Positions 23,058-61,396 of a DNA stretch of 64,000 bases are shown here, piece by piece (within the stretch, counting starts at the first letter, position 1; each line of letters opens with the position of its first letter). A model generated the notes under the pieces. It saw only the letters and a list, made by a program, of their open reading frames with translations. It was not told the DNA's origin and made no database searches. The stretch is taken from the NCBI RefSeq assembly GCF_900096945.1, contig NZ_FMKA01000001.1, forward strand, positions 186,001 to 250,000, read 5' to 3'. A program made the position numbers and the translations under genes. The stretch comes from Anaerobium acetethylicum (GTDB lineage: Bacteria; Bacillota; Clostridia; Lachnospirales; Lachnospiraceae).

Positions 23058-23483
23058 ATGAAAAAAAGGTATGCTATAATAGCTTTGGCTATGGTTATGA
23101 TGTTAGCTGTATCATTACCGGTATCCGCATGCGGCATATTATATACCCAGGGATATTGGAAGAATCATACAGAAGTATGGGATGAGCGCTGTGAATCAAC
23201 ACTTTTACCAAGTGATACATTTTTTGGTTCTGGTATGACCTGGATACAGATGCTGAAAGTTCCGACAAAGGGAGATGCATATATTATACTTGCACATCAG
23301 TATATTGCTGCAAAACTGAATTTGTGGACATCCAATGCAGTTCCGACTGAAGCAGTTCTCAATGCATTGTACCGGGCTGAAATTCTTTTCAATGCTTACG
23401 ACCCTGGAATGATTCCAGAAGGTCTTCGCGAACAGGCAATCCATGATGCTGGAATTCTGGATGCATGGAACAATGGCATTTAG
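23058..23483 (+). CDS. Secreted GYWKNH-motif protein
   Basis: The 141-residue protein has a clear signal peptide (KKR, then a hydrophobic core of about 17 residues). Processing is likely at Ala24/Cys25; the sequence VSAC also fits a lipobox, so it may be lipid-anchored. The mature region starts CGILYTQGYWKNHTEVW, with a GYWKNH motif seen in various secreted bacterial proteins of unknown role, followed by a helical part with HQYIAAKLN and ALYRAEILFNAY. Cys25 and Cys45 could form a disulfide. ATG 23058 follows AAGGAGGT. The preceding 550 bases look regulatory. Function unknown. Confidence 0.78.
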   Translation: MKKRYAIIALAMVMMLAVSLPVSACGILYTQGYWKNHTEVWDERCESTLLPSDTFFGSGMTWIQMLKVPTKGDAYIILAHQYIAAKLNLWTSNAVPTEAVLNALYRAEILFNAYDPGMIPEGLREQAIHDAGILDAWNNGI

Positions 23484-23573: not shown

Positions 23574-23606
23574 GCCCTGCCAGAATGAACTGGCAGGGTT
23601 TTTTTT
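23574..23606 (+). terminator. Intrinsic terminator
   Basis: CCCTGCCAG and CTGGCAGGG form a perfect nine-base stem with a six-base loop followed by eight T residues, ending the GYWKNH transcript. Confidence 0.92.
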
Positions 23607-23643
23607 CTTTACTTACAAGCAGAAGATGGAATATAATATGATA

Positions 23644-24142
23644 CCAAGGGTCCAAAGGTCATGTGTTTCATGCTTGCATGAAAAAACATGACTTTGGGAC
23701 CCGCAAAACATGAGAAAGGAGCCCTAACAGGGCGGATTTCTCATGTTTTAGGATTGTGAGAGCACAAAGTGCGGAACAATCCGTTGGTATCCAAGGGTCC
23801 AAAGGTCATGTGTCTCTTGCTTGCATGAAAAAACATGACTTTGGGACCCGCAAAACATGAGAAAGGAGCCCTAACAGGGCGGATTTCTCATGTTTTAGGA
23901 TTGTGGGAGCACAAAGTGCGGAACAATCCGTTGGTATCCAGGGTCCAAAGGTCATGTGTTTCATGCTTGCATGAAAAAACATGACTTTGGGACCCGCAAA
24001 ACATGAGAAAGGAGCCCGAACAGGGCGGATTTCTCATGTTTCTAGGATTGTGGGAGCACAAAGTGCGGAACAATCCGTTGGTATCCAGGGTCCAAAGGTC
24101 ATATGCTTCATGCTTGCATGAAAAAACATGACTTTGGGACCC
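23644..24142. repeat. Tandem array of a 147-base structured repeat (3 full copies and 1 partial)
   Basis: Units start at 23644, 23791, 23938 and 24085 with an exact 147-base period and few substitutions; the fourth copy ends after about 57 bases. Each full unit contains three nested hairpins. The first is GGGTCC..TCATG/CATGA..GGGACCC with an inner TTTCATGC/GCATGAAA. The second is AAACATGAGAAA/TTTCTCATGTTT with inner GCCCT/AGGGC. The third is GGATTGT/ACAATCC with inner GCAC/GTGC. A minus-strand open frame of 110 codons through the array is repetitive translation, not a gene. The last partial unit ends 23 bases before the GNAT start. Confidence 0.92.
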
Positions 24143-24164
24143 GTTGATCAAGGAGGATAAAATT

Positions 24165-24746
24165 ATGGAACTATCGATACGTCCAGCTACACTTGAAGAT
24201 GCAGAAGCTATACTTGCCATATACAGGCCCTATATAGAATCGACCTCAATAACGTTCGAGTATGAAGTCCCGTCAGAGGAAGAATTCAGACTTCGCATGA
24301 AAACAATTTGCGAGAAATTCCCGTGGCTTGTATGCATGGTGGATGGAAAAACAGCGGGGTATGCCTATGCTTCCCCACATCATGAAAGGGCTGCTTACCA
24401 GTGGAACGCAGATCTTTCTGTATACGTAAGCAACGAATGCCAGGGGATGGGAATAGGCACGATTCTTTATGCGGCACTTATTAATCTTTTAAAGGCCCAG
24501 GGCTTCTACAATCTATATGTCCTGATTGCCTATCCAAACAAAAAAAGCGAATCCCTGCACAGGCATTTCGGCTTCACTGATGTCGGCCTCTATAAAAATA
24601 CGGGCTACAAGTTCGGCGAGTGGCATGATGTACTGTGCATGGTAAAGACATTAAGAGATTTTGGAGGCAGTCCCACCGCGTCTGTTCCGTTTTCAGCACT
24701 GGGAACCGATCTGATTGCGGATATTCTGAGAAAAAGCCTGCTTTGA
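24165..24746 (+). CDS. GNAT acetyltransferase, phosphinothricin acetyltransferase-like
   Basis: This 193-residue N-acetyltransferase has the Pat/MddA pattern: SIRPATLEDAEAILAIY at the start, the TSITFEYEVPS segment, YAYASPHHERAAYQWNADLSVYV and the acetyl-CoA loop QGMGIGT (P-loop Q/RxxGxG). Relatives acetylate phosphinothricin, methionine sulfoximine or other amino acids; the substrate here is not proven. ATG 24165 follows AAGGAGG. The C-terminal extension of about 25 residues beyond the GNAT core is not conserved as far as I know. The 147-base repeat array is immediately upstream, so its transcript may contain part of a repeat. Confidence 0.88.
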   Translation: MELSIRPATLEDAEAILAIYRPYIESTSITFEYEVPSEEEFRLRMKTICEKFPWLVCMVDGKTAGYAYASPHHERAAYQWNADLSVYVSNECQGMGIGTILYAALINLLKAQGFYNLYVLIAYPNKKSESLHRHFGFTDVGLYKNTGYKFGEWHDVLCMVKTLRDFGGSPTASVPFSALGTDLIADILRKSLL

Positions 24747-51078: not shown

Positions 51079-51337
51079 CGTGCCAAAAGCCCATTTACAT
51101 AATGGTATTCGTCAATTTGCACAGGTTTTCGAATGAGGACGTGATGCAAAACATGTTGATTCGCAGCGCGCTCTCGCTTAGATGAAGACGTAGTGGTACG
51201 TAAGGCCGCAAAATACGCGGCCCAAGTACCAACGTCTTCATAAAGCTGCTCATCAATTCATGTTTTGTATCACTGTGCTACAGCTAGCGAGTGTGCAAAT
51301 TGATGAAGCCGAGGTTTACGATATGCTTTTGACATTC
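51079..51337 (+). repeat. Foldback repeat, copy 2 (full length)
   Basis: The 259-base element is an almost complete imperfect palindrome. Paired blocks from the ends inward are CCAAAAGC/GCTTTTGAC, TCAATTTGCACA/TGTGCAAATTGA, GTGATGCAAAACATG/CATGTTTTGTATCAC, ATGAAGACGT/ACGTCTTCAT and, at the tip, GGTAC..GGCCGC/GCGGCC..GTACC. It matches copy 3 (61135) along its whole length. It contains no open frame. Confidence 0.9.
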
Positions 51338-51349
51338 TGATCCTATGAT

Positions 51350-51418
51350 GTTGGAGTCAAAAGGTATTTTGACCCTAGATACCTACGGATTGTTACGCAC
51401 TTTGTGGTATCATCCTAT
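51350..51418 (-). repeat. Diverged single copy of the 147-base repeat
   Basis: Read on the minus strand, this segment matches the third hairpin and the unit boundary of the array at 23644-24142: on the plus strand GACCCTAGATACCTACGGATTG corresponds to the array's reverse complement GACCCTTGGATACCAACGGA. The GTTACGCACTTTGTG part also matches. The large first hairpin is reduced to a short TCAAAAggtaTTTTGA stem, and the second hairpin is absent. Confidence 0.65.
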
Positions 51419-61134: not shown

Positions 61135-61396
61135 GAATGTCAAAAGCCCATTTACAAAATAGAATCCGTCAATTTGCACAAGTTTTAATAAGGAAGACGT
61201 GATGCAAAACATGTTCATTCGCAGCTCGCTCTCGCTTAGATGAAGACGTAGTGGTACGTAGGGCCGCAGAATACGCGACCCAAGTACCAACGTCTTCATA
61301 AAGCTGCTCATTGAGCCATGTTTTGTATCACTGCGTGATAAATGGCGAATGTGCAAATTGACGAAGCCGAACGTTAGAAGAGGGCTTTTGACATTC
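61135..61396 (+). repeat. Foldback repeat, copy 3 (full length)
   Basis: The 262-base element has perfect 15-base terminal inverted repeats, GAATGTCAAAAGCCC and GGGCTTTTGACATTC. The inner palindrome matches copy 2 (tip GGTAC..GGCCGC, ATGAAGACGT/ACGTCTTCAT, TCAATTTGCACA/TGTGCAAATTGA). It has no coding capacity. It lies between the NUDIX terminator and the yneA control region, in the same orientation as copies 1 and 2. Confidence 0.9.

Follow-up and report, generated by a model that had tools for sequence, protein, structure and literature searches.

A probable MITE-type element with a covarying RNA fold, Clostridiales-1, in a tandem array of Anaerobium acetethylicum

The unit of a tandem array in the 64,000-nucleotide stretch of Anaerobium acetethylicum DNA analysed here (the window) is probably a non-autonomous element of the MITE type that has a covarying RNA fold and has been multiplied locally. 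On this reading Clostridiales-1, a candidate RNA since 2010, makes up the interior of a MITE-type element. That the element is mobile in nature is very likely because of its inverted ends, its target-site duplications and its dispersal. An earlier note on this DNA had offered three options, of which ‘expanded mobile or regulatory RNA element’ is the best supported, there being mobile features, an RNA fold kept by covariation and local expansion. With this the question shifts from what the RNA regulates to why a mini-transposon keeps an RNA fold.

At 23647-24143 TRF finds one tandem array with a period of 147, 3.4 copies, 97% matches and 0% indels, in agreement with the exact 147-base period and few changes noticed earlier. 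Unit 1 (23647-23793, plus strand, as placed by TRF, the Rfam match and folding) consists of hairpins H1 (23648-23702), H2 (23705-23749) and H3 (23751-23782), followed by the right outer arm GTTGGTATC (23783-23791), all on the plus strand. Overlapping its start is the left end of the element, GATACCAAGGGTCCAAAGG (23640-23658, plus strand), which includes the left arm of the outer stem, GATACC (23640-23645), and, compared with the consensus end GATRYYRGGGTCAAAAGG, has one extra base and one substitution; the consensus end motif, used with up to three ungapped mismatches, misses this diverged left end. Unit 2 (23794-23940) has two changes that break H1 pairs, unit 3 as placed by TRF is at 23941-24087, and partial unit 4 (24088-24143), also on the plus strand like the other two, has H1 alone and then GTTGATC, apparently a right outer arm that has been cut short. 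This partial unit lacks H2 and H3, presumably lost by deletion, as well as the fourth, terminal hairpin dealt with below.

Together with its flank, unit 1 (23640-23791) folds at -79.7 kcal/mol compared with a mean of -36.0 (sd 3.9) for its shuffles (z = -11.2; 0/200 equally stable), and in the predicted fold an outer stem, GATACC.../...GGTATC, surrounds three hairpins in a row. The left outer arm is present in unit 1 only, units 2 and 3 being without an arm of their own because the duplicated stretch begins just inside the left end. Three strong hairpins per full unit are thus present as the earlier note described, but they are side by side rather than nested, with the outer stem confined to unit 1. 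Its statement that the differences among units spare the stems does not hold: measured against unit 3, units 1, 2 and partial 4 show 8 distinct differences, and half of these break an H1 base pair (two in unit 2 and two in unit 4). H2 itself exists in two states, many copies having an internal loop with GAG opposite GAA, and the window array (23705-23749) and loci L004 and L006 having the loop closed to a perfect stem with GAG opposite CTC. An open frame on the minus strand (23888-24220, 110 aa) overlaps the array and can run through the units because 147 is a multiple of 3; it was considered and rejected as a gene, and other copies vary in unit length.

The family to which the unit belongs is Rfam RF01699, Clostridiales-1 RNA, and all three full units score above its gathering threshold of 48 bits (114.4 bits at 23640-23791, 111.6 bits at 23932-24086 and, from the genome search, 102.3 bits for unit 2 at 23785-23939, i.e. 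G000:C50:209785-209939). It was first described, as a candidate RNA, by Weinberg et al. 2010 (PMC2864571), where a table row gives it as probably RNA, probably not cis-regulatory and probably not a switch, with Clostridiales and human gut as its entry; the main text names it once, in that row, and says nothing there of mobility or tandem arrays. No treatment of RF01699 as a mobile element was found under the family name or accession in the portions of the literature consulted, an earlier remark elsewhere being possible; literature on Lachnospiraceae with MITE, within the same portions, gave nothing relevant. The window units have three hairpins in common with the Rfam family, and the difference is at the edges. 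The Rfam match stops at the outer stem, whereas full genomic copies run past it into a fourth hairpin, where the end recurs in inverted form, and have target-site duplications beyond that. The boundaries of Clostridiales-1 are accordingly to be redrawn, with the fourth hairpin and the inverted ends being outside the Rfam match. In this genome and in related genomes the full form has about 182-222 bases, starting with GATACCAGGGTCAAAAGG and finishing with its inverted counterpart, CCTTTTGACCCCAACATC. The terminal inverted repeats of genomic copies are GATRYYRGGGTCAAAAGG, and the window array keeps a diverged left end only.

Target duplications together with inverted ends are the trace of a DDE-type transposase. 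Pairing by script of left and right ends 34-330 bases apart among the loci examined gave 63 distinct elements, a set that includes one overlapping pair at L101 and also L079 with a wrong right end (by eye, ATAACAT is on both sides of the latter). Their lengths of 35-286 bases, mostly 182-222, are too short for a transposase gene. The best direct duplications are perfect over 7 bases in 30 elements and over 8 bases in 8, with one of 6 and one of 9, and the duplications of the remaining 23 have mismatches. At a fixed length of 7, 30/63 match at 7/7 compared with 2.0% of 3906 flank pairs from different elements, the script having taken the best duplication where several right ends were possible and the mismatched-flank control having had no such choice. 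The perfect 7-base duplications have the consensus ATNNNAT, and the targets are A+T-rich, ATN(3-4)AT. Since AAGTAAG, TACTTAT and TTAAAAT also occur as duplications, the AT is a target preference and not element sequence. This target rule is testable, and the copies are possible markers of strain variation.

Shortened forms are also flanked in this way. A 36-base form consisting of the ends only (L099) has a perfect duplication, as has a 69-base form with H1 alone at L119 and, by eye, another at L218. The window has a second copy of the element, internally deleted to 65 bases with the fourth hairpin and a remnant of H3 (51347-51411, minus strand), between the left and right copies of the target-site duplication ATCCTAT (51340-51346 and 51412-51418, read from the sequence). 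The array itself is without a target-site duplication because its right end is gone. A separate observation concerns genome G062, where three 69-base H1-only elements have both ends (C3:83155-83223, C9:107908-107976 and C22:25751-25819), which suggests, on sequence grounds, that the H1-only derivative may move on its own.

The search for single units that the earlier note had proposed was productive, BLAST giving 45 matches to the array in its own genome. Seven of these are second-strand or self matches of hairpins, and 38 are distinct places, many of them partial and the array included. RF01699 is present in 23/61 genomes (own included), in 17 of them above the cut-off, and in 0/14 control genomes; the carriers have three family labels within one order, and the number of matches reported per genome goes from 0 to 35 (at most 38 candidates having been scored). 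The end motif ATGATRYYRGGGTCAAAAGG is in 34/150 genomes of the family (again with its own included), and a reversed-motif control gave 0 in all. Plasmid and phage occurrences are sparse, which counts against the mobile-element reading, with 2 of 72,556 plasmid records and 10 of 50,697 phage records being similar, mostly partially. A Butyrivibrio fibrisolvens plasmid (Lachnospiraceae) has an RF01699 match and an Agathobacter rectalis plasmid (L228, also Lachnospiraceae) an end fragment. One IMG/VR viral contig carries a copy, the one true copy found with a core-structure pattern, and by eye ATTATAC is on both of its flanks. Viral contigs yielded 0 stretches with the end motif including its AT prefix; two stretches with the motif minus that prefix are identical in sequence, lack an RF01699 match and were taken as chance. 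The end fragment at L228 (4001-4031), a right end, is located between a tetracycline-resistance gene of the TetM/TetW type and an aminotransferase gene. The element is abundant in some gut Clostridia, and the mobile-element reading explains the patchy distribution of Clostridiales-1.

A different reading of this dispersal is that of a trans-acting small RNA gene (the Rfam type being ‘Gene; sRNA’) multiplied by ordinary gene duplication. The strand-biased covariation and conserved loops described below fit it, as does the PMC2864571 row with its probable RNA that is probably not cis-regulatory. As a full account it is rather unlikely, however, as the inverted ends, the duplications, and the end-only and H1-only copies with like duplications mark a mobile element, and a reported copy number as patchy as 0 to 35 per genome also counts against it. 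Each of the two readings may nevertheless hold in part.

The immediate surroundings of the array raise a more local matter. After the upstream ORF there is an intrinsic-terminator-like hairpin with a T run (23574-23599, plus strand; 10 pairs, 7 of them GC, and a T-rich tail in a consensus scan), and directly 5′ of the array is a sigma-70-like promoter, TTTACT-18-TATAAT (23608-23637, plus strand), with 10/12 consensus matches. Promoter-like sites in the array region number 3 compared with 1.5 expected in shuffles, as judged by consensus match only. Just 3′ of the array the sequence AAGGAGG resembles a ribosome binding site (24150-24156, plus strand) for a GNAT acetyltransferase gene (24165-24746, plus strand; PF13420, 3.4e-25). 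The ATG of this gene (24165) is 21-22 bases past the end of the array, and the match of its product to Pfam GNAT families bears out what had been noticed there. The ORF directly upstream (23058-23483, 141 aa) has by eye a signal-peptide-like start with the stretch CGILYTQGYWKNH; at a threshold of E 0.001 Pfam gave no match for it.

From the succession of terminator, promoter, array, ribosome site and GNAT gene it would seem that the GNAT mRNA probably has the array as a highly folded leader some 500 bases long. Whether such a leader acts in cis to regulate the GNAT gene here, and other genes elsewhere, is a further step, and an unlikely one. Apart from the sequence order in the window it would draw on the orientation of genes next to other copies, for among the 63 elements there are 33 oriented copies between two called genes, and the next gene is in the same direction in 22 of these. 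But 22/33 is near chance, 11 being opposed, and 6/63 elements are inside a mechanical frame, so that gene orientation shows no strong cis pattern; moreover, position can be explained by insertion mechanics alone. In this context the frequency of TATAAT beside the ends is pertinent (left 33/53 compared with 11.8, right 36/53 compared with 10.0, in mononucleotide shuffles), though this raw excess is largely expected because it is built into the ATN(3-4)AT target. With matched control sites, promoter-like sites at 9 of 12 matches are at 25/49 insertion points compared with 36% of 176 controls (p = 0.04), with p = 0.04 also at 8 of 12 and p = 0.29 at 10 of 12, all uncorrected. Promoter-targeted insertion, being weakly enriched against these controls, is not claimed.

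The fold is kept across genomic copies, where the earlier note had looked to covariation and to the fate of the stems. The alignment used (A1), our own and not the Rfam seed, has 38 units from at least 16 genomes. RNAalifold gives 43 pairs for it, 29 with compensatory changes, and inclusion of the outer stem brings the number to 49, with 95.4% of 1836 cells paired and double changes in 33/49 pairs (204 cells). In none of five measures did any of 500 shuffles reach the observed value, and a control in which partners were slid by 1-3 columns left at most 16 pairs with double changes. Seven helices each have at least 3 double-change pairs; the outer stem is one of them, its variants being GATACC/GGTATC, GATGCC/GGCATC, GACGCC/GGCGTC and GATTCCC/GGGAATC.

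Which strand folds, and as which nucleic acid, was approached through wobble pairs in a second set (A2), the best 76 of 150 model matches reduced by identity to 37 units (<85% alike) or 23 (<75%) and, being fitted to the covariance model, leaning toward structure. The 37 units have 54 G.U compared with 13 A.C (p = 4e-7), or 38 compared with 10 without the commonest G.U column pair; for the 23 units the figures are 36 and 11, and without the commonest column 26 and 10 (p = 0.011). As G.U exceeds A.C, the reported strand is the folded one. Conserved loops are also pertinent: 30/37 units have G(CTTG)C as their H1 loop, the H2 motif ATGAG is in 34/37 and the H3 motif TTGNGGGAG, with one mismatch allowed, is in 30/37, with conserved unpaired purine-rich residues in both H2 and H3. 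In RNA form G(CUUG)C is an exceptionally stable tetraloop. G.T wobbles occur in single-stranded DNA too, so that RNA is favoured, short of proof, and on balance we lean to RNA being the selected form of the inner part.

What this preference has to be set against is retention of the hairpins as DNA, either as palindromes undergoing template-switch repair or as cruciforms, with no selection on RNA. In its favour, every arm is an inverted repeat, palindromes are known to be sites of tandem duplication, and one H2 internal loop is closed to a perfect stem in the window array, L004 and L006. Repair of arms would, however, erase the conserved unpaired residues of H1, H2 and H3, and for that reason selection on a folded transcript is more likely; the excess of G.U over A.C is also against the DNA reading, which is to be regarded as quite doubtful.

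Sequence comparison makes it very likely that the array arose by local tandem duplication of an inserted copy and not by repeated insertion. Units 1-3 are 97.9-98.6% alike, and of 14 other copies compared the closest is at 95.2%; with units closer to each other than to other copies, duplication on site is the simplest account. The array is not alone in this. Among matches listed above the cut-off, its own genome has four tandem loci (on C34, C42 and C59, and that of the window on C50). G003 has an array with a period of 146 and 3.1 copies, and the single-contig genome G057, which has another family label, one with a period of 149 and 5.0 copies, one unit of which is above the Rfam cut-off. Further tandem loci are in G002, G007, G027 and G028, with some loci having been chosen because they looked tandem, so that no frequency is implied. 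The junctions differ between L002, L003 and the window, which points to separate tandem events. Variation in copy number, raised as a possibility in the earlier note, gains indirect support from arrays of about 2, 3 and 5 copies, but these are at different loci and in different genera.

An assembly artefact multiplying a single real unit might be thought of since the genome is a draft of 105 contigs, but this is very improbable as the units differ at 8 places and the family has arrays in two other genera, with periods of 146 and 149, one of them in a single-contig genome. Mobility as single-stranded DNA, of the IS200/IS605 or attC type, for which one strand being the structured one might be cited, is the least credible alternative of all: the element has inverted ends and perfect duplications of 7-8 bases, neither of which those systems are known to make, and in G126 and G057 matches are on both strands with no evident rule, in small numbers.

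For the MITE-type element the following course of events is envisaged. A DDE-type transposase acting in trans would move the element, as its duplications and inverted ends indicate. In the window, one element would have inserted just after the promoter; tandem duplication of a segment beginning slightly inside the left end and reaching the outer right arm would have followed, leaving no right end, and a deletion would then have removed H2 and H3 from the final unit. In the inner part selection would act on the transcript rather than on the DNA, and the transcript may serve upkeep of the element, for instance through protein binding or by rendering insertions in transcribed leaders tolerable. 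A more speculative extension, for which our expectations are low, is that the transcript is part of the life cycle: a four-way-junction RNA, read from adjacent host promoters, might bind the transposase or a host factor and set where and how often the element moves, with tandem arrays serving as amplified decoys or dosage units.

Candidates for the mobiliser were sought in 12 carrier genomes, all drafts, with five transposase families (PF01609, PF00872, PF12762, PF06782 and PF01610) chosen by the duplication lengths of insertion-sequence families. The numbers of genomes with matches were 10, 5, 0, 1 and 3, respectively; G098 has none of the five, and G163 has a fragment only, below the cut-off. 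Near the matches examined as loci (30/32 for PF01609) the end motif occurs with 3-4 mismatches only, and no autonomous partner with the ends of the element was found among these five families in the 12 genomes. Paired inverted ends 1.7 kb and 1.2 kb apart in G062 were considered as a possible autonomous element, but proved to be two separate small elements, with ORFs between the paired ends that are not transposase-like by eye. Among the loci compared there was no unoccupied locus spanning an insertion site and no second plasmid, nor was there a filled/empty site pair, relatives of the GNAT gene in named genomes being too distant.

Parallels with known small repeated elements are instructive. 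With MITEs the present element shares inverted ends, duplications, lack of an internal transposase gene and internally deleted forms; it differs in that a parent insertion sequence was not found (five families, 12 genomes) and in that a covarying RNA fold is retained in its interior from genus to genus. Like it, the BOX elements of Streptococcus pneumoniae are modular, dispersed and structured, with a varying number of modules. REP/BIME sequences with their RAYT differ in inserting without target-site duplications, which the present element has. Attention is also drawn to bcr1-bcr3 of the Bacillus cereus group, which, according to PMC3446304 and PMC6542083, are non-autonomous, intergenic, likened to MITEs by the authors and often in transcripts, bcr1 having tens of copies; a table row in PMC2267715 has a common fold predicted for bcr1. 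On these descriptions the present element is similar to them in size and in being non-autonomous and intergenic. It is set apart by its ATN(3-4)AT target and three family labels, the bcr elements being linked with TTTAT and confined to a single species group.

The window has other repeats as well. A short tandem repeat at 921-1005 has a period of 41, 2.1 copies and 90% matches. A second repeat family, apparently unrelated and of about 200 bases or more, is at 51108-51307 and around 61286-61309, with ends like TTCGTCAATTTGCACA / TGTGCAAATTGATGAA and the core ACCAACGTCTTCATAAAGCTGCTC; this core is in the window twice, with no mismatch, and in L022, L027 and L042 it lies next to copies of the Clostridiales-1 element.
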